Source: Nitrospirota bacterium
Lineage (GTDB): Bacteria > Nitrospirota > Thermodesulfovibrionia > UBA6902
Direction: 5' to 3'
NCBI GenBank assembly: GCA_016234115.1
Contig: JACRHD010000019.1
Coordinates: 62,001 to 126,000, forward strand
DNA length: 64,000 nt
Under the pieces are notes generated by a model that saw only the letters and a program-made list of their open reading frames with translations, was not told the origin of the DNA and did no database searches. Positions 6,602-39,178 of this stretch are shown here, piece by piece (within the stretch, counting starts at the first letter, position 1; every line of letters starts with the position of its first letter). The position numbers were made by a program, and so were the translations under genes.

Positions 6602-6637
6602 CTTTTCTCCCTTGTATGTCTATTTAATATAAAACTG

Positions 6638-6745
6638 AAAAATAAAATATCAAAAATCAAAATGACAGATTAAAATGTAAAAATGCCGGCTGCGGTTGAT
6701 TTTTGATTTTTGGTTTGTCATTTTGCATTTTGATTTTTTATCTTT
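6638..6745. repeat. AT-rich inverted-arm repeat (AAAATCA / TGATTTT words)
   Basis: The left arm (ATCAAAAATCAAAATGACA) and the right arm (TGTCATTTTGCATTTTGATT) are inverted copies around a GC-rich centre (TGCCGGCTGCGG). It is of the same class as the GC-rich 7-mer hairpins but uses AT words. Confidence 0.75.
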
Positions 6746-6751
6746 AATTTT

Positions 6752-7987
6752 TCAAATAACGTTCGGCAGCACCGTCATGACCAGCAGCGACGCCGTCAGT
6801 ATTATTAAAACAAGCACAGTGCCCCACGCTATGTAATTATAGCCTTTCGGGTTAGTATATTCTCCCATGATCCTCTCATTATTAACAAGTGCCAGCGCGA
6901 AGATGAGGACGAAAGGCAGCAAAACGCCGTTGAGCAGAGAGGAGAGGATCATTAATAGTATCAGCGGCGCGCCCGGTATCAGGACCAGCAGGGCGGAGAT
7001 GGCGATAAGAGCGGTATATATCCACATGAACTGGGGCGCCTCTTTGAAGCTCTTGTTTACCCCCGCCTCCCATCCCATAGCTTCACAGATATAATATGCC
7101 GTGGCAAGCGGAACGACAATGGCCCCCAATATTGACGCATTTGCAAGACATACGGCAAACAGAATGGAGGCGTATGTTCCCGCAAGAGGCTCAAGGGCCA
7201 GGGCCGCTTCCTTGGCCTCGTTTATCCTTATGCCGTGAGGAAACAGGGAGGTAGCACAGGTGACTATTATAAAAAACGCGATGATGTCGGTTATCACGCA
7301 CCCGATAATAACATCGAGCTTTGAAACCTTATAATTCTCTTTCTTGACTCCCTTTTCAGCAATTGACGACTGGAGATAGAACTGCATCCAGGGGGTTATG
7401 GTTGTCCCTATTATCGCAATGGTCAGCATAATAAATTCAGACTCGAACCTTACCTCCGGAACGACGGTGCTCTTTAAGACCTCCCCCCACTGGGGCGCGG
7501 AGATAAACCCTGAAACCACATAGCCGAAATACATCAGGCAGGCTATCAGCAGGGCCCACTCCACTAACCTGTAGCTTCCCTTGGTGACCAGGAGCCATAT
7601 CATAAAGGCCCCCAAGGGGACCATTATATATTTGCTCAGGCCGAATATCTCCATGCTCGCCGCCCAGCCCGCAAACTCGGCAATGGTGGTGCCGAAGTTT
7701 GCGATAAGCAGGACTATCATCATGAAGAAGGTCGTCTTTACACCGTAATTCTCCCTGATAAGGTCGGAAAGCCCTTTCCCCGTCACGACCCCCATCCTCG
7801 CAACCATCTCCTGAATGACGATGAGCGCTACAGTAGTGGGGATCAGTGTCCACAGGAGCGCGTAACCGTACCGCGCCCCCGCAACGGAGTATGTGGTGAT
7901 TCCCCCGGCGTCGTTGTCGATGGAAGCGGTTATGATACCCGGCCCTATAATGGATAGGAGCACGAAAAACTTTCTCCAGCGGCTCAC
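6752..7987 (-). CDS. Nramp/SLC11-family divalent cation transporter, non-canonical (Mg2+-type motif)
   Basis: A polytopic inner-membrane protein with about 11 hydrophobic helices (411 aa). It keeps the Nramp opening GPGIITASID, but the canonical helix-1 DPGN is DNDAGG (residues 24-29). The helix-6 metal-selecting MPH is T198-P199-W200 in GTTITPWMQFYLQSS. Loss of the Met ligand is the hallmark of the NRMT branch described as Mg2+ transporters. Its start overlaps by 4 bases the stop of an upstream gene encoding MgtE-type regulatory domains, which also points to Mg2+ rather than Mn2+/Fe2+. Substrate is inferred, not shown. Confidence 0.85.
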   Translation of the reverse strand: MSRWRKFFVLLSIIGPGIITASIDNDAGGITTYSVAGARYGYALLWTLIPTTVALIVIQEMVARMGVVTGKGLSDLIRENYGVKTTFFMMIVLLIANFGTTIAEFAGWAASMEIFGLSKYIMVPLGAFMIWLLVTKGSYRLVEWALLIACLMYFGYVVSGFISAPQWGEVLKSTVVPEVRFESEFIMLTIAIIGTTITPWMQFYLQSSIAEKGVKKENYKVSKLDVIIGCVITDIIAFFIIVTCATSLFPHGIRINEAKEAALALEPLAGTYASILFAVCLANASILGAIVVPLATAYYICEAMGWEAGVNKSFKEAPQFMWIYTALIAISALLVLIPGAPLILLMILSSLLNGVLLPFVLIFALALVNNERIMGEYTNPKGYNYIAWGTVLVLIILTASLLVMTVLPNVI

Positions 7988-9355: not shown

Positions 9356-10474
9356 CTAAGACAGGGTTTTTTCGGCAACCTGCAACCCATACCCCTCATG
9401 CAGAATCTCTATCTTCCCCTTCAGGCCCTTTGTAATGAAGACCCTCTTCTGCGAATCCACTAAAATTCCGTCTATGTTCATCGAATCAAGGAGCTTCATA
9501 CCCTTCTCGGCCCCGAGGACGAGTACGGCCGTATCAATGCCGTCGGAGATATACCCTTCCGGGGCGATGACAGAGACGCTTATGAGGCCTGACTCCGAAG
9601 GATAGCCTGTCTTCGGGTCGATGATGTGATGATAACGTTTCCCGTCTTTTATGAAGGACCTCTGATAGTCGCCCGCCGTCGATATCGCGCGGTCTTGGAG
9701 ATAAACGCTCGCAAAGATGTCCTCCCAGGGTTTTTCCGAACCGGGATTCACCGGCCTCGGGTCCTGGATGCCCACCTTCCACGGTTTCCCCGTTGCGCTC
9801 AATCCGTAGCCCCTGATATCTCCCGCAATGGCCACAAGCGCCGCCTGTGTCCCTTTTGCCTTAATCGCCTCAACGGCCCTGTCCGCCGCATAGCCCTTTG
9901 CGATACCTCCCAGATCAAGCTCCATTCCTTTTTGCTGAAGATATATTTCCGACGCCGCGCCGTCTGTTTTTATTTTTCTGAAGTCAACGAGTTTCAGTGC
10001 CTCTTCAATTGCGCCTTCCTCCGGTATTGCCGGATTTGCAGGACGTCCTGAAAACTTCCAAAGCTTAAGGACAGGAGCAATAGTGGGATCGAACGCCCCG
10101 TCCGTCATTTCCGATACAGCGATTGTTTTTTTCATTAAATCCAACGTCTCTTTGCTGACCCCTGCCGGCTTCGCTCCCGCTGATTTGCCGATCATGCTGA
10201 TCTCGCTGTCCGGGGAGAAGTTGTTGAAGAGGGTCTCCATTTTCTTGATTTCTCCAAACCCCGCTTCTATCGCCTCTTTCGCCTTTTCTTCAGAATCGGC
10301 AACCACCGTGATAGTACAGAAGGTGTCCATCAGGACCCGGTTTTCCTTAAACATCTTGTCCTGTCTTGAACAGGAAGTAAGAAGTAAGAAGTAAGAAGTA
10401 AGAAGTAAAGCAAGAAAAAGGTAAAGACGGCATCCTGAACTTTTGAACCTTTGAACCATTGAACTTTTATTCAT
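9356..10474 (-). CDS. apbE: FAD:protein FMN transferase, lipoprotein
   Basis: This periplasmic enzyme attaches FMN to Thr in flavoproteins such as Nqr/Rnf subunits. Family motifs are [43 protein letters not shown] and [12 protein letters not shown]. The N-terminus has a Lys/Arg start, a hydrophobic stretch and the lipobox-like LLTSC, so a lipoprotein is likely. The signal-peptide segment [13 protein letters not shown] is encoded by five perfect GAAGTAA units (10374-10408), so a repeat arm forms the secretion signal. The ATG at 10474 is chosen; it overlaps the uvrA 3' end by 8 bases. An upstream TTG (10492) is possible. Confidence 0.92.
10374..10410. repeat. Five tandem GAAGTAA units inside apbE
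   Basis: Five perfect 7-mers in a row within the coding region for the ApbE signal peptide. A looser period-7 tract (TTGAACC/TTGAACT words) continues at 10437-10467 over the gene start. No complementary arm is seen. Confidence 0.9.
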
Positions 10475-12983
10475 TCTGTAATCGTCTCGCAACCAACTTC
10501 TCCCTCAGATATATCCCCGTGTACGACTTCGGATTTTTCGCGACTTCCTCGGGGGTGCCCGTAGCCACCAGCCTGCCGCCTCCGTCTCCTCCTTCAGGTC
10601 CGAGGTCGATGATATAATCGGCGCTCTTGAGAATGTCGAGATTATGCTCGATGACGAGCACACTGTTGCCGGCGTCCACGAGCCTGTTGAGGACCTCGAG
10701 CAATTTCTCGATATCGAGGAAGTGAAGGCCGGTCGTGGGCTCATCGAGGATGTAGAGTGTCTTGCCGGTCGCCCTTTTGCTGAGTTCCCTCGACAGTTTT
10801 ACCCTCTGCGCCTCGCCGCCGGAAAGGGTCGTTGCGGACTGACCTAATTGAATATAACCGAGACCTACCTGTTCGAGAGTCGCCAGTTTATTTCTCAGCG
10901 GAGGTATCGCTTCGAAAAATTCCAGCGCCTGGGTCACGGTCATGTTAAGGACCTCGGAGATATTTTTCCCTTTGTACCGTATTTCGAGGGTCTCCTTGTT
11001 GTATCTCGCCCCCTTGCATGTGTCGCAGGGGACGTACAGGTCAGGCAGAAAATGCATCGACACCCTGACAAGCCCGTCCCCCTTGCAGGCCTCGCACCTG
11101 CCGCCCGTTACGTTGAAACTGAACCTCCCCGGCTTATATCCCCTCACGCGGGAGTCAGACGCCTGGGAAAACAGCATCCTCACAAATGAGAAGATCCCGG
11201 TATATGTCGCGGGATTGGACCTTGGGGTCCTTCCAAGAGGCGCCTGGTCTATATCGATCACCTTGTCGATCTTCCCGATCCCCTCGATGCCGCCATGTTT
11301 TCCGGGGACGTCAGGGGAGGAATATAATTTCTTCGCAAGGGCCTTATACAGGATTTCCAGTATCAGGGTGCTCTTGCCCGAGCCCGACACCCCGCTCACA
11401 CAGGTGAAAACCCCGAGGGGGACACCCACGTTTATCTTCCTGAGATTGAATTCCTGCGCGCCTTTTATCCTGATAAAGTCCTTCGGCCTTCGCCTGTGCG
11501 CGGGGACGGGGATAGTCATCCTGCCGCTGAGAAAAGAGCCGGTCACGGAATCCCTGTTATTTATGATGTCCCGGAAATTGCCCTCGGCCACTATGGAACC
11601 GCCGTGCACCCCGGCGCCCGGTCCCATGTCTATTATATGGTCTGCGGTCTTCATGGTCTCCTCATCATGCTCGACCACAAGGACTGTGTTGCCCATGTCT
11701 CTGAGCGCGCAGAGACTTTCAAGCAGCCTGTCGTTGTCCCTTGGGTGCAAACCGATGCTCGGCTCATCGAATATATAAAGCACCCCGGTGAGCGAGGAAC
11801 CGATCTGGGTCGCAAGCCTGATACGCTGGGACTCCCCGCTCGAAAGCGTCGCCGCCGGCCTGTTCAATGTAAGATAACCGAGGCCGACCTTTTCGAGGAA
11901 ATGCAGCCTTTCCCCTGTCTCCCTTAGAATTTTCGAGGCTATGACCTGCTCTGTCTTCGTCAATGTCAGTTGTTCAAAAAACGTGATAACGTCATTGATG
12001 GACATGGCGGACAACTCTCCGATGTTGAGGTCATTGATCCTGACGGACAATGACTCTTTCCTGAGCCTGTGTCCGTTACAGGCGGGACATACGGAAAGCC
12101 TGCCGGTGTCCTCCTCTTCTTCCTCCACATTCCTGAAGCCCAGACCCCTGCACTTCGGACACGCCCCGTACGGGCTGTTAAAGGAAAAAAACCTCGGGCT
12201 TATCTCCGGGTAATTTATGCCGCACCTGGAGCAGGCGAGCTTTGTGCTGAAGAAGAGGTCCTTGCCGTCGTCGATTATGTTTATCGTGACCGCGTCGGTA
12301 ATGCCGGTGGCGGTCGTGATCGCCTTTGAGAGATGTTTATCAATTCCGGGCCTTATTATCAGCCGGTCGATCACAATATCGATATCATGCCGTTTATGCC
12401 TGTTTAGCTTGATCTCCTTTGTAATATCGACCATCTCTCCGTCTATCCTCGCACGGATAAAGCCCTTCTTCCTGGCCTCATATAATTCTTTTTTGTATTC
12501 GCCTTTTCTGCCTGCTACTATCGGCGACAGCACCTGGATCCGCGTTCCTTCCGGCAAAGCGGTTATCATTTCAATAATCCGCTGCGTCCCCTGTGAAGAG
12601 ATCGGGTTTCCGCATTTGTAGCAGCTCAGTTTGCCGATCCTTGTGTACGCGACCCTGAGGTAATCATATATTTCCGTAATCGTGCCGACCGTGGAACGGA
12701 GATTCTTCGACACGGCCTTCTGCTCAATGGCGATGGAAGGGGAAAGTCCTTCAATGAAATCGACGTCGGGCTTCTGTATCTGATCGAGAAATTGCCGGGC
12801 ATACGCGGAAAGGCTCTCCACGTATCTCCTCTGGCCTTCTGCGTAAATCGTATCGAAGGCGAGGGACGACTTGCCTGAGCCTGAAGGCCCCGTGATGACT
12901 ACAAAGCTGTCACGCGGGATCGAGACGTCTATGTTCTTGAGATTATGGACCCTTGCGCCCCTGACTATGATATGTTCGAGCAT
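10467..12983 (-). CDS. uvrA: Excinuclease ABC subunit A, short form lacking the insertion domain
   Basis: The damage-recognition ATPase of nucleotide excision repair. Both ABC halves are intact: Walker [10 protein letters not shown] near residue 31 and GVSGSGKST in the second half, with signatures LSSGESQR and LSGGEAQR. The UvrB-binding region is retained and opens with [11 protein letters not shown]. The C-terminal zinc loop is CEAC...CDTC. The protein is 838 aa against about 940 for typical UvrA. The missing stretch maps precisely between CPKCRGLG and CPACNGHRL, where the roughly 100-residue insertion domain normally sits; only about 13 acidic residues ([11 protein letters not shown]) remain. 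Both flanking zinc Cys pairs are kept, so this looks like a clean loss rather than a frameshift. Confidence 0.93.
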
Positions 12984-23000: not shown

Positions 23001-23105
23001 AAATAAAAATTAAAAATCAAAATGCAAAAATCAAAATTAAGGAATATTATTTAATTAAATTCCTCTCCTTAATTTTGATCTTTTATTTTTCATTTTTGAT
23101 CTTTT
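23001..23105. repeat. AT-rich inverted-arm repeat (ATCAAAA / TTTTGAT words)
   Basis: The left arm AAAAATCAAAATGCAAAAATC is mirrored by CTTAATTTTGATCTTTTATT. The right arm provides the last codons (KIKNEK and stop) of the upstream radical-SAM gene. Confidence 0.8.
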
Positions 23106-25638
23106 CGTTAATAGGTTCAATCCATCCGCTACTATTATAACCATAAAGGCGTACTCTTTTGATCATCGCCGCCTGTATGTCCTCAACAGGCTGCCGGAGC
23201 ATCTCCATTAATATTTCATAAGGCCGCACCTTGGCCCTGTCCGTATCAACGACCACGAGACGCAGCCTGCCGTCTTTGACCTCCGCCTTTTCAACCATCT
23301 CACGGACATCCACGGATTTTGCCCGGACAGCTTTTCCGGAGCCCCCTGCCCCACCCTTCCCCGCCTTTTCATCTCCTCTGAAGACAAGGCAGCCTTCCTT
23401 TTCCATGAACGATGCTATTTGTTCCTCCACGCCTGAGCCGACCTCCACTTCATATTCATATCGTGAAATAAAATCGCTCAGGGCGCGTTCATCCCTTGGA
23501 ACTAAAACTGCCCGCAAGCCGTAAAGCCCATCCGGCAGTTCCCGGTTCAGTCTGCTCAAAAAATCGTCCGCATCCATCAAATGTGTCAACTCGACGTCGA
23601 AATACTCGCCCAGACCCTCGATCCCCGCTGCAAGGGCCGGACCGAAGGATATCCTGGGATGCGGATGAAACCCCGCTGAATACGCAACCGGAAGACCCGC
23701 CCTTCGCAAAGACCTCAGCATAACCGTTATCAGTTCATTATGAGAAAGATACCTCATGTCCCCGGTCTTTGAGAATTTCACCCTTATTTTCGTTGGCACG
23801 GCTATTTTCCATGATGGAGAAGCGTCACATGAGGTTTTGAGTTTTGAATTTTGAATTTTGAATTCTTCACCTTCAGCCTTCTGCCCCCTGCTGTCTTTGC
23901 ACCCCATCCCGCATCCGTGACAGACGTTCCTGCAGTCTACGGTAATTTTCTCCTGAAAGGCGCGGTTGTATTCGTCGGCCAGGAAATTCTTTGCCATCCC
24001 GGTATCTATAAAGTCCCAGGGTAGTTCATCCTCCAAAGCCCAGGAGCGCATTGCAGAGCCGTAAAGGTCGATGCCTGTCTTTTCGGCGGCGTACAGCCAC
24101 TTGTCAAAGCTGAACATCTCAGACCATCCGTCAAAGCGGCAGCCCTCTCTCCACGCCTCCTCAAGCAGCGCGGCGCACTCCGTGCCGCCCCTTGCGAAGA
24201 CCGCTTCAAGGAGGCTCACCTCGACATGCTGCCCCTTGAAATCGATCCCCCTCCGCCTGAACGCCCTTTTCAGATAATCCTGCTTCTCGCGCAGGTCCCC
24301 AGATGGGGCCTGCCCGGTCCACTGAAAGGGGGTATGAGGTTTCGGCACAAAGGACGAAACTCCCACGTTGACGGTAACGCTCCTTCCGGTGATCTCCCTG
24401 CCTCTTTTTGAGGCCCTCACTGCCATATTGATAAGCCCGTCGATGTCCTGCATGGTCTCAGAGGGAAGGCCCGTCATGAAATAAAGCTTGATACTCTTCC
24501 ACCCCTCGGAAAAGAGCTTCGTCAACGTCTCTTCGTATTCTTCTTCAGTAAAATTCTTGTTTATGACGCTTCGGAGCCTCACGGTGCCGGCCTCGGGCGC
24601 AATGGTAAAACCCGTCTTCCTTACGCTTTTTATCTCCCTGATCACGCCGCTGGTCAGGGAACCTACGCGCAGCGACGGCAGGGAAACCGAGATGTGCCGG
24701 CCCGCGCATGCGGCGTTAAAATCCCTGATTAAAGGAAGAAGACCGCTGTAGTCGCCCGTGCTGAGAGACGCAAATGAGACCTCCTCGTGTCCCGTGTTTG
24801 CGATGGAATTCAGCGCCAGCGAGAGGACCTTCTCCGGAGACCTTTCACGCAGGGGCCTGTAGATCATCCCCGCCTGGCAAAAGCGGCATCCCCGCGTGCA
24901 TCCCCTTGCGATCTCTATTGCCGCGCGGTCGTGGATGACCGCCGCATAAGGGACAACAGGCGCATCTGGATAAGGGGCCTCGTCGAGGTCCTCCACAAAC
25001 CTTCTCCTGATTTTCTGTTTGCTTATGTCGTGAATTGAAGGCACATAAATCCCTTCTATTTTTGAAAGGGCATTCAGAAGGTCTTCTTTTTTAGATTTGA
25101 AATTTGAAATTTGAAATTTGAAATTCTTGAAAATATCCAGTATCTCTCCAATCACTTCTTCCCCATCGCCTATCACAAAGGCGTCGATAAAAGGCGCCAG
25201 AGGCAGAGGATTTACAGAGCACGGCCCCCCGGCAATCACAAGCGGACAATCGTCTCCCCTCTCCGAGGCCCTTACCGGCATCCCTCCCAAGTCCAGCATA
25301 TTGAGAATATTTGTGTATGAAAGCTCATATTGAAGCGTAAAGCCGACAATGTCGAAGTCCCTCAACGGTCTCTTGTTTTCCAGGGAAGACAGGGGAATAT
25401 TGTTCCGCCTGATATGCTCTTCATAATCAGTCCATGGGGCATATATCCTCTCAGCGGAGGCATAAGGGACATTATTTATGATCTCATAGAGTATCTTGAG
25501 CCCAAGGTGGGACATCCCGATTTCATATGTGTCGGGAAAGCATAAAGCGACTTCTATGTCCGAGTCTTTCCGGGCTATATTTACTTCGCCGCCCATGTAT
25601 CTGCTCGGTTTTCTGAAACAGGCGAGATTTAAAGACAT
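23083..25638 (-). CDS. Radical SAM protein fused to DUF2344 domain (TIGR03960/TIGR03936)
   Basis: A B12-binding-like N-terminal region (LCFPDTYEIGMSHLGLK) precedes the radical SAM core with CTRGCRFC near residue 250 (CxxxCxxC for the 4Fe-4S/SAM cluster). The C-terminal DUF2344 domain starts around residue 610 (RVKFSKTGDMRYLSHNEL). Fusion of TIGR03960 with TIGR03936 next to rng is a known arrangement; the substrate is not established. Two in-frame AT-rich 7-bp repeats are embedded: 25092-25128 (FKNFKFQISNFKSKK, about residue 175) and 23835-23866 (EFKIQNSKLKTSC), plus a repeat-encoded C-terminus. ATG at 25638 is chosen over a TTG two codons earlier. Confidence 0.9.
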   Translation of the reverse strand: MSLNLACFRKPSRYMGGEVNIARKDSDIEVALCFPDTYEIGMSHLGLKILYEIINNVPYASAERIYAPWTDYEEHIRRNNIPLSSLENKRPLRDFDIVGFTLQYELSYTNILNMLDLGGMPVRASERGDDCPLVIAGGPCSVNPLPLAPFIDAFVIGDGEEVIGEILDIFKNFKFQISNFKSKKEDLLNALSKIEGIYVPSIHDISKQKIRRRFVEDLDEAPYPDAPVVPYAAVIHDRAAIEIARGCTRGCRFCQAGMIYRPLRERSPEKVLSLALNSIANTGHEEVSFASLSTGDYSGLLPLIRDFNAACAGRHISVSLPSLRVGSLTSGVIREIKSVRKTGFTIAPEAGTVRLRSVINKNFTEEEYEETLTKLFSEGWKSIKLYFMTGLPSETMQDIDGLINMAVRASKRGREITGRSVTVNVGVSSFVPKPHTPFQWTGQAPSGDLREKQDYLKRAFRRRGIDFKGQHVEVSLLEAVFARGGTECAALLEEAWREGCRFDGWSEMFSFDKWLYAAEKTGIDLYGSAMRSWALEDELPWDFIDTGMAKNFLADEYNRAFQEKITVDCRNVCHGCGMGCKDSRGQKAEGEEFKIQNSKLKTSCDASPSWKIAVPTKIRVKFSKTGDMRYLSHNELITVMLRSLRRAGLPVAYSAGFHPHPRISFGPALAAGIEGLGEYFDVELTHLMDADDFLSRLNRELPDGLYGLRAVLVPRDERALSDFISRYEYEVEVGSGVEEQIASFMEKEGCLVFRGDEKAGKGGAGGSGKAVRAKSVDVREMVEKAEVKDGRLRLVVVDTDRAKVRPYEILMEMLRQPVEDIQAAMIKRVRLYGYNSSGWIEPINEKIKNEK
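23835..23866. repeat. In-frame TTTTGAA 7-mer array inside the radical SAM gene
   Basis: GTTTTGA-GTTTTGA-ATTTTGA-ATTTTGA-ATTC spans the linker between the SAM domain and DUF2344 and translates as KIQNSKLK-like residues on the minus strand. Confidence 0.85.
25092..25128. repeat. In-frame TTGAAAT 7-mer array inside the radical SAM gene
   Basis: Four near-perfect TTGAAAT units. On the minus strand they encode FKNFKFQISNFKSK, an insertion between the B12-like domain and the SAM core. Confidence 0.9.
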
Positions 25639-25689
25639 TTCCAATTATCCCACAGGGAATTGTTGAAATGCAATTTGAGGGCACTACAA

Positions 25690-25790
25690 AGTAGTAAGTA
25701 GCAAGTAGTTGGTAGTTAAGGGAACACGTCAGGAAATTCTTCCCCTTAACTACTTACTACTATCTACTTACTACTAACTACTGGCTACTT
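25690..25790. repeat. 7-bp-period inverted-arm repeat (TAGTAAG / CTTACTA words)
   Basis: The left arm is TAGTAAG-TAGCAAG-TAGTTGG-TAGTTAA. After a loop of about 30 bases the right arm is TTAACTA-CTTACTA-CTATCTA-CTTACTA-CTAACTA. One of the clearest examples; it fills the gap upstream of the radical SAM gene. Confidence 0.92.
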
Positions 25791-26380: not shown

Positions 26381-26465
26381 AGGGTCAAGGGTCAAGGGGC
26401 ATAGGGCATAGGGCATGGGGCGACCCGAAACAGGTCCTCCCCTTGACCCATGCCCCTTGCCCCCT
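26381..26465. repeat. 7-bp-period inverted-arm repeat (GGGTCAA, GGGCATA / TTGACCC words)
   Basis: The left arm GGGTCAAGGGTCAAGGGGC continues with GGGCATA units; the right arm is CCCCTTGACCCATGCCCCTT. It separates two divergently transcribed genes. Confidence 0.85.
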
Positions 26466-27108: not shown

Positions 27109-29136
27109 ATGCAAAACTTATTCAGCCGGAAATCTCCACATCACTTATTGACAGTCACCTTCATACTGTCGGCATTGCCCATTCTGACAGTGGTGATGTT
27201 TCCCGCGCGGCTTAACGGTGTAATGGCCCCGGAGCCGTATGTCGTTTTCCATAACATTGCCGAGTTCTTCAGCATCATGGTTTCCCTGTCCATTTTCGGA
27301 GTCGGATGGTTCACTTACGAGCGGTCCGGCAACCGGCACGCGCTTTTTTTAAGTGCGGCCTTCCTTGCCATCGGCCTCATGGATTTCATGCACACCATGA
27401 GCAATGCCGCCATGCCCGCGTTTATAACTCCCAACTCCTCCAACAAGTCTACCCGGTTCTGGGTGGCAGCCAGGCTGTTTCAGGCGGCGGTGTTTCTTGC
27501 CGGCGCTTATATTTATCCGGAGAGACAAATTCGCTGGTTGTCGAGAAAGGTATTGATGACGTCGGCGCTTCTCATGCCCGGGATTGTCTTTACCGGGATT
27601 GTTTTTTTTCCTGAACTCGTGCCCGCCACTCACATACAGGGGACCGGCCTCACACCTTTCAAGAAAATTTCCGAGTATCTGGCAGTCGTCCTTCTGTGCA
27701 TATCGGCTGCTGCTTACTGGCGTCGCATGAGGAAGACCGGGGACAGGGTCATCATATACTACCTGGCGGCATTCATTATCTGTATCTTCAGCGAGATCGT
27801 CTTTGCGAGCTACACAAAGGTGTTTGACACCTATAATGTGCTTGGACATCTCTATAAGATAGCCGCTTTTTATATGATGTATAAAGGGATATTCATCGCA
27901 TCGGTCAGTGAGCCTTATATTAAACTCGTGGATATGACGGTTTCGAGGGATGAATTGAGCAGGGAGGTGGAGGAGCGCAGGCGGGCGGAGGAGGCGCTGC
28001 GTGAGAGCGAGCAGAGTTATCACTCGTTATTTGAAAATATGGTTGAAGGGTGCGCATATTGCAGGATGCTTTTTGACGACCGGGGACAGCCTGCGGATTT
28101 TGTCTATCTCGATGTCAACAGCGCATTTGGACGGTTGACCGGGCTGCAGAACGTGGTCGGTAAAAAAGTCACACAGGTAATTCCCGGGATCAAAGAATCA
28201 CATCCTGAGTTATTGGAGACTTACGGCAGGGTCGCGTTGACTGGCAGGCCGGAGAAATTCGAAATTGAATTCCTGCCCCTGAAAGTCTGGCTGTCCCTCT
28301 CGGTCTACAGCACGGAAAAGGGACATTTTGTGGCTGTGTTCGACAACATCACCGCACGAAAGGGAGCCGAAGAGAATATCGCTCAACTGAATCTGGAGCT
28401 GAATCAGAGGGTCGGGGAGCTTGAGCGTTCCAACCGCGAGCTGGAACAGTTTGCCCATATCACGTCTCATGACCTGAGGGAGCCTCTCCGTATGGTCTCA
28501 AGCTATATGCAGCTTATCGAGCGCCGGTATAAGGGCAAGCTCGATAAGGACGCCGACGAGTTCATCGATTTTGCGGTCAGGGGCTCCGAGCACATGCAGG
28601 CGCTGCTCAAAGACCTGCAAGTCTACTCGCGCGTTGGAAGGGACGAGGAGCCTTTTGTATCGACTAATTTAAATTTCGCACTCAAGAGGGCGCATGACAA
28701 CCTGCAGAGCGCAATCAAGGAAAGTCACGCCGATATCATGTATGAAAAGCTGCCGTCTGTTTATGCTCATGAGATCCAGATGGTGCAGGTGTTTCAGAAC
28801 CTTATGGCAAACGCTATCAAGTTTCGGGGCATGGAAAAGCCCTGCATCCGCATTTCCGCCGGACAGATGGGAGATGAATGGGTCATACAGGTCCGCGACA
28901 ACGGCATCGGCATCGCCCCGGAATATTTCGACAGGATATTCCTGATGTTCAAGCGTCTTCATACGCGCGACAAGTATCCGGGAACGGGCGCAGGGCTGGC
29001 GATCTGCAAAAAAATTGTGGAGCGCCACGGGGGGCGGATATGGGTAGAGTCGGAGAAAGGGAAAGGGGCGACGTTTTATTTTACGATTCCGGAGAAAAGA
29101 CAGGGGCAAGGGTCATGGGTCATGGGGCACGGGTAA
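27109..29136 (+). CDS. Membrane sensor histidine kinase (MASE3-PAS-HisKA-HATPase)
   Basis: The N-terminal 265 residues have about seven hydrophobic helices and match the MASE3-type membrane sensor (FMHTMSNAAMPAFITPNSSNKS). A PAS domain (about 300-415), a coiled-coil linker, HisKA with His near 451 (ITSHDLREPLRMVSSYMQLI) and a HATPase domain (NLMANAIKFRG, DNGIGIAPEYFDRIF, GTGAGLAICKKIVERHGG) follow. The last residues (KRQGQGSWVMGHG) and the stop are encoded by a GGGTCAT-type repeat arm. It is probably the partner of the Rcp1-like regulator upstream. Confidence 0.92.
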   Translation: MQNLFSRKSPHHLLTVTFILSALPILTVVMFPARLNGVMAPEPYVVFHNIAEFFSIMVSLSIFGVGWFTYERSGNRHALFLSAAFLAIGLMDFMHTMSNAAMPAFITPNSSNKSTRFWVAARLFQAAVFLAGAYIYPERQIRWLSRKVLMTSALLMPGIVFTGIVFFPELVPATHIQGTGLTPFKKISEYLAVVLLCISAAAYWRRMRKTGDRVIIYYLAAFIICIFSEIVFASYTKVFDTYNVLGHLYKIAAFYMMYKGIFIASVSEPYIKLVDMTVSRDELSREVEERRRAEEALRESEQSYHSLFENMVEGCAYCRMLFDDRGQPADFVYLDVNSAFGRLTGLQNVVGKKVTQVIPGIKESHPELLETYGRVALTGRPEKFEIEFLPLKVWLSLSVYSTEKGHFVAVFDNITARKGAEENIAQLNLELNQRVGELERSNRELEQFAHITSHDLREPLRMVSSYMQLIERRYKGKLDKDADEFIDFAVRGSEHMQALLKDLQVYSRVGRDEEPFVSTNLNFALKRAHDNLQSAIKESHADIMYEKLPSVYAHEIQMVQVFQNLMANAIKFRGMEKPCIRISAGQMGDEWVIQVRDNGIGIAPEYFDRIFLMFKRLHTRDKYPGTGAGLAICKKIVERHGGRIWVESEKGKGATFYFTIPEKRQGQGSWVMGHG

Positions 29137-39076: not shown

Positions 39077-39178
39077 CAGAGTTAAGAGTTAAGAGTAATG
39101 AGTAATGAGTAATGAGTTAAGTATAGAATAATTTATAATCCCTGGCACATAACTCTTGACTCTTGACTCCTAACTCTG
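39077..39178. repeat. 7-bp-period inverted-arm repeat (GAGTTAA / CTCTTGA words)
   Basis: The left arm is GAGTTAA-GAGTTAA-GAGTAAT-GAGTAAT-GAGTAAT-GAGTTAA; the right arm, after about 35 bases, is AACTCTTGACTCTTGACTCC. It fills the ferredoxin-glmM spacer. Confidence 0.92.

Follow-up and report, generated by a model that had tools for sequence, protein, structure and literature searches.

Tandem heptameric repeats (STRR) are dispersed in the genomes of cyanobacteria, Beggiatoaceae and Xanthomonas, with units such as TAACTGA (PMC4679880) and GGGAATC (PMC4692102). In Beggiatoaceae, TAACTGA arrays lie in 25 open reading frames (ORFs), and it was suggested that the insertions succeed chiefly at protein peripheries (MacGregor 2015, PMC4679880). 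Two further systems place repetitive or palindromic DNA inside genes, namely the Rickettsia palindromic elements (RPE), which lie in frame within many unrelated protein genes and form families of about 150 bp, each with a conserved peptide (PMC10969869), and the tandem repeats of archaeal Borgs, about half of which lie in ORFs, where the unit lengths are always divisible by three (PMC9879509). Here, we examined a 64,000-nucleotide (nt) stretch (hereafter the window) of the genome of a Nitrospirota bacterium, in which one radical SAM gene carries two heptamer arrays in frame and takes its last codons from a third, heptamer-armed palindrome. Our results demonstrate that these arrays are members of a genome-wide, dispersed population of heptamer arrays, whose sites are old and persistent and whose units are rewritten and copied from their neighbours.

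The arrays of this genome resemble STRR in consisting of tandem 7-nt units in dispersed copies. Unlike STRR, which use one or a few units per genome and are mainly intergenic, they comprise 39 units in 13% of one genome, with 62 of 100 arrays in ORFs, including essential genes; the convergent bipartite layout and the rewriting of units at fixed in-gene sites between sister species also set them apart. They share with RPE the occurrence of in-frame palindromic DNA in unrelated genes, but no sequence or peptide is conserved here, only the 7-nt period, the polarity and the unit repertoire, and both units and peptides vary by site and species. Like the Borg repeats, about half lie in ORFs, evolve fast, are recently formed and create disordered peptide repeats (PMC9879509), whereas their unit is 7 nt long, is read in all three frames and is shared genome-wide. 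Interstitial telomeric sequences at double-strand breaks (PMC2246262) are likewise short tandem arrays at former breaks, as ours would be, with the geometry of fused ends and the purine strand directed inward; however, these have a single telomerase-templated unit, whereas there are many units here and no reverse transcriptase is needed. REPIN/RAYT systems (PMC3116915) also consist of short palindromic elements dispersed in a bacterial genome, but our arrays have no conserved REP sequence and are not clustered at RAYT genes. A limited literature search turned up no earlier account of convergent, multi-unit heptamer arrays spread through core genes and undergoing rewriting in place, and nothing on array peptides or on heptamers in Nitrospirota genes.

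The window lies on contig C68 of a genome of 3.50 Mb in 69 contigs (G000), whose nearest named relative by protein is a groundwater Nitrospirae bacterium known from a metagenome-assembled genome (MAG). The radical SAM gene and its repeats are located as follows.

23083 to 25644, minus strand: B12-binding radical SAM protein (TIGR03960) with a fused TIGR03936/DUF2344 domain, 853 aa (851 aa from ATG)
25095 to 25125, minus strand: in-gene array 1, coding strand AATTTCA x4.4 (canonical AAATTTC), aa ~173-186, within the Radical_SAM_N2 match
23835 to 23864, minus strand: in-gene array 2, coding strand AATTCAA x4.3 (canonical AAAATTC), aa ~594-607, linker between the radical SAM and DUF2344 parts
23865 to 23889, minus strand: degenerate heptamer stretch AGGGGGC AGAAGGC TGAAGGT, read by eye, adjoining array 2 on its upstream side in the coding strand
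23005 to 23104, no strand assigned: convergent palindrome with heptamer arms at the gene's 3' end, supplying the last codons and the stop

The ORF starts at TTG, and the ATG two codons downstream gives the 851 aa stated in an earlier note on this DNA. Its product matches the NCBIfam models TIGR03960 (E value 3.8e-210) at residues 10-582 and TIGR03936 at residues 619-834. TRF recovered both arrays, array 1 as the TTGAAAT class with 4.4 perfect units and array 2 as the TTTTGAA class with 4.3 units (95%). Their coding-strand translations, IFKNFKFQISNFKSKK and EEFKIQNSKLKTSC, leave the frame unbroken, as the earlier note had said, and the inserts are probably translated, judging from the intact and conserved ORFs. 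Both arrays had been placed at domain boundaries, which is right for array 2, a true interdomain linker between the two NCBIfam matches. For array 1, this assignment was dropped, since the Pfam Radical_SAM_N2 match (residues 48-202) encloses it as a stretch of variable length. The third arm, proposed to form the C-terminus, corresponds to a palindrome with 50-nt arms (23005-23054 and 23055-23104) that are 76% complementary, and its inner edge encodes the last codons, EKIKNEK and the stop.

The array residues are lineage-specific, as had been anticipated, and lie in variable, gappy segments. In alignments of the radical SAM protein, CbiD and MurD, their identity to relatives was 0.15-0.21, compared with 0.62-0.66 elsewhere, and this was the case in all three genes tested (P = 0.0045, 0.0005 and 0.0005, respectively). 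The peptide FKNFKFQISNFK was exactly matched in one relative only (G007, and the near-identical L031), and a homologue from a distant phylum (L032) is without it. The linkers were compared among 29 relatives. Linker 1 carries GAAGTCA in five species, AAATTTC in G007, and other heptamers or none elsewhere, and linker 2 gave a similar picture. On a tree built without the linkers, species with and without an array at linker 1 form clusters (6 changes, compared with 10.0 after shuffling, with 4 of 500 shuffles as low), but the identity of the unit shows no such clustering (12 changes for nine states; 12.6 when shuffled), and the AAATTTC units found in G000 and G007 fall among relatives that carry AAGTCAG. 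Moreover, the GAAGTCA arrays of the five species are 97-100% identical, although the four-fold sites of the same gene differ by 51-71%, close to saturation (~74%), which indicates that the repeat has been refreshed at the DNA level. At MurD site 1, the unit pair AGGGATT / CCAACCC is common to different families (G038 and G003/G004), and G043, the sister of G038, has another pair.

Rewriting in place was visible in two pairs of sister species (G003/G006 and G038/G043; murD 89-91% identical). At orthologous in-gene array sites, the unit was the same in five cases, changed by one base in seven, and different in four, the replaced units lying between well-matched flanks (80-94% identical, mostly ~90%). 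Both linkers of the radical SAM gene changed their unit between G038 and G043, and at one intergenic site (A37 24003) both arms had changed together. The net length changes at the 16 in-gene sites were 0, +/-21, 45, 18, 6, 9 or -3, all of them multiples of three once anchor slips were resolved and three of them exactly 21 nt. Five intergenic sites differed by 114, 32, 42, 17 and 28. A first automated comparison had given differences of -20 and +1, which became -21 and 0 with outer anchors; at two other sites, the outer-anchor differences of 25 and 7 were apparent anchor slips into neighbouring arrays, and tight anchors gave 0.

These sites belong to a much larger population. The window holds 11 period-7 arrays (score of at least 14), compared with 0-1 at other periods, multiples of 7 apart, and none in shuffled sequence. 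A census of 464 kb of G000 (13% of the genome, in chosen contigs, of which C65 is unusually dense) found 87 such arrays, none at periods 2-6 and 10-13, six at period 8, eight at period 9, and none after shuffling; chance is thus not the explanation. The density in G000 is about 2 arrays per 10 kb. At a score of at least 13 and with ORFs called greedily, the 62% of arrays in ORFs compare with a sample that is 88% coding, so genes are under-represented, yet hold most of the arrays. By NCBIfam names, the array-bearing genes include ruvC, ybeY, metG, murC, murG, murD, murE, aroC, topA, a copper P-type ATPase gene, mqnE, cbiE/T, cbiG/H, cbiD, cbiM, cobB, cbiB, cobQ and cobU; cbiD has eight arrays in 420 aa, and three were called in murD in a first pass. 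In the cobalamin cluster on C65 (L047 and L048), array density is several-fold above that of the remaining sample, with one to eight arrays in nearly every cob/cbi gene.

The unit repertoire is limited, with 116 distinct units in 303 arrays where 258 would be expected. Exact three-unit counts across whole genomes fit the units seen in genes: with overlapping matches counted, GAAGTCA occurs 0 times in G000 and G004 and 44 times in G006, and AAATTTC 0 times in G006. The source genomes are MAGs, and an assembly artefact is unlikely because an array, at about 31 nt, fits within a single sequencing read. Array density at housekeeping loci in family f3 (same order) is as high as in the window's genus, and G037 of family f2 is likewise rich, whereas many genera of the window's own family are nearly array-free, giving a patchy distribution (f2 and f3: G037, G038, G041, G043 and G045). 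In the IMG/VR collection, 20 viral contigs (L195-L214) have perfect GAAGTCA x4 arrays, and L195, L197 and L202 also carry several heptamer arrays of other units; the phenomenon thus reaches phage, prophage or other hosts.

The arrays are frequently parts of a larger element. Other arrays and elements in the window are located as follows.

33 to 100, no strand assigned: intergenic convergent pair with unlike arms, AAGGGTC / AGGGGCC
6631 to 6752, no strand assigned: intergenic convergent pair, AAAAATC arms
25689 to 25789, no strand assigned: intergenic convergent element, AAGTAGT arms (purine arm, core, pyrimidine arm)
26381 to 26421, plus strand: array with progressive unit drift, AGGGTCA to TAGGGCA
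29102 to 29133, plus strand: AAGGGGC array at the C-terminus of a 675-aa ORF
39078 to 39176, no strand assigned: intergenic convergent pair, AAAGAGT / AAGAGTC arms

In its basic form, the element spans about 70-120 bp, with 4-5 purine-rich heptamer units followed by a short core and then by a pyrimidine-rich array. One-armed forms are common, and convergent pairs have a median span of 91 bp. Among array pairs at most 60 bp apart, 40 showed the order purine-rich, core, pyrimidine-rich and three the reverse (P = 3e-9), polarity having been assigned by simple majority from the composition of the units. The same order is read from either strand, being its own reverse complement, and so characterises the element rather than a strand or gene. 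The units of the two arms are related but often non-identical (mean distance 1.86, versus 3.01 +/- 0.16 for random partners). Within arrays, adjacent units differ at 234 positions compared with 326 +/- 13 after shuffling of the unit order, which indicates sequential copying that carries variants along the array. Median array length is 31 nt in genes and 32 nt between them.

In genes, stop codons act as a second filter. The sense strand was stop-free for 53 of 62 in-gene units and the antisense strand for 22 of 62, with about 43% for intergenic strands. Purine-sense arrays encode hydrophilic peptides rich in G, S, K and Q (mean hydropathy -1.20), and pyrimidine-sense arrays encode peptides rich in L, S, T and P (0.32). 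A second gene in the window has an array within its signal peptide.

9356 to 10492, minus strand: ApbE-family gene, carrying a GAAGTAA array
10374 to 10408, minus strand: GAAGTAA x5 array, encoding the hydrophobic core of the ApbE lipoprotein signal peptide

In many relatives (loci L255-L278), the ApbE signal peptide is encoded by a different heptamer, and several have a purine-sense array upstream; a purine array directly upstream of the hydrophobic core sometimes gives a charged n-region. Read on either strand, the element gives a charged arm and then a hydrophobic arm, like the n- and h-regions of signal peptides, which may explain the ApbE case. Further array-built N-terminal or signal-peptide-like segments occur at L041:16235-17032, L048:1517-1849 and L048:1846-2643 (LLFALCPLLFALCFFSC-like; FTIHYSLFT; CbiM N-terminus). 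Together, these data show that, within genes, only stop-free, frame-keeping versions survive at tolerant positions, namely loops, interdomain linkers, termini and signal peptides. The earlier note's overall interpretation is therefore partly supported: its lineage-specific residues and its frame filter, now seen in 16 of 16 in-gene length changes, hold up, but survival is not confined to linkers, since arrays also make N- and C-termini and signal peptides such as that of ApbE, and movement of the elements was not shown.

Whatever the mechanism, it has to explain why the step is fixed at 7 nt, why units are copied in sequence, why converging arms are purine-first, and why sites persist while units are replaced. 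Our preferred reading, to which we give a probability of roughly 0.42, is the recurrent local rewriting of array sites by copying in 7-nt steps at broken ends, with reading frame and stop codons acting as filters. Array sites would be prone to breaks or stalls, and repair synthesis would lengthen the two 3' ends by slippage-like copying, 7 nt at a time and invariably as the purine-rich strand, perhaps seeded by heptamers already present in the cell. Joining of the extended ends would then give converging arms and a junction core, repeated cycles at one fragile site would swap the unit but keep its place, and selection on the host gene would retain only net changes divisible by three, so that a simple gain or loss of units in a gene would come in threes (21 nt).

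Several points weigh against this proposal. Neither a break nor a repair intermediate nor an enzyme was seen, so that the repair step, the enzyme and the joining are read from the pattern, and we know of no biochemical basis for a fixed 7-nt step here. The sister comparison covers 16 in-gene sites only. Shared units at the same site in distant species, such as those of G038 and G003 at MurD site 1, could reflect gene transfer or site-dependent seeding. The inserts are probably placed at the protein surface, judging from alignment, as the AlphaFold2 model of the radical SAM protein (4 sequences) was poor (pLDDT 48) and was not used. Finally, Ku was not found in the array-rich G004, G005, G007, G008, G038 and G041, and Ku-dependent non-homologous end joining was rejected as a necessary route for this reason. 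In G000, two adjacent Ku genes lie beside a Y1 transposase gene (G000:C48:11851-14092, partly L156), and paired Ku genes occur in several other members of the genus.

The bipartite palindromic layout with related arms, as well as the dispersal of copies, would also be expected of a mobile palindromic element resembling miniature inverted-repeat transposable elements or REPINs, which would be served by a transposase in trans, insert into genes and intergenic spaces, and let its heptamer arms diverge later. Y1 transposases are present in every array-rich genome examined, but 20 Y1_Tnp/RAYT loci were array-poor, with three arrays in 66.9 kb (0.45 per 10 kb, compared with ~2 per 10 kb in G000); linkage to RAYT/Y1 transposases was rejected, the presence of the genes fitting array-rich genomes loosely while their flanks are array-poor. 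An element with no conserved sequence (39 units in 100 arrays), whose unrelated units swap at the same site with the flanks intact and around which no target-site duplication was found, makes this explanation unlikely. As for the earlier note's proposal that elements move into genes, neither transposition nor a mobiliser was found; the data show persistent sites with a rewritten unit.

Ordinary simple-sequence slippage, by which heptamer microsatellites are born locally and expand or contract with nothing inserted, is an equally doubtful and already weakened alternative. Loops of 7 nt escape mismatch repair. This escape, the sequential drift of neighbouring units and the 21-nt length differences between sites with related units all speak for slippage; local birth, however, predicts random units and many periods, and what we see is period 7 only and a shared unit repertoire, together with convergent arms at 40 to 3 and wholesale unit replacement at fixed sites.

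Templated addition of 7-nt repeats to DNA ends by a telomerase- or retron-like reverse transcriptase, comparable to the origin of mammalian interstitial telomeric repeats, is very improbable. Converging purine-strand arrays do look, in their geometry, like a pair of telomere-like ends that have been fused, and there is the mammalian precedent (PMC2246262), but the 116 different units would require many templates, and RVT_1 had no match in the array-rich G000, G003 and G038, nor in G001, although a divergent enzyme might fall below the cut-off; at RVT_1 sensitivity, a reverse transcriptase was rejected as necessary. Protein-level selection for low-complexity linkers or signal peptides, with repetitive DNA as a by-product, agrees with where the in-gene arrays lie and with the soluble or hydrophobic repeats that they give depending on the strand, but is hardly credible, given that DNA identity is kept although synonymous codons would permit divergence and that the period of 7 nt is no multiple of three, and the intergenic copies of the same arrays refute it as the sole cause, leaving it as a filter and not a source.

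For annotators, recurring peptides such as EVRSQKSEVRS, SKFKIQNSKFK, GQGARGKGQGA and LLVTRHSSLVT mark arrays and not homology. One would expect genes to be purged of tandem repeats whose unit is not a multiple of three. Here, such repeats pervade core genes, their sites are retained across a family, and their unit changes between sister species. A bolder and rather unlikely extension of the rewriting proposal is that a dedicated DNA end-extending activity writes variable 7-nt repeats, with the purine strand as the growing one, at broken or stalled sites and returns to the same chromosomal sites to rewrite them, with the result that gene linkers and lipoprotein signal peptides would periodically receive new repeat-encoded peptides, which would make it an intrinsic generator of in-frame protein variation. 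Two questions become testable with these findings, namely by what process bacterial DNA is written in steps of 7 nt, and how frequently new linkers and signal peptides originate from repetitive DNA.
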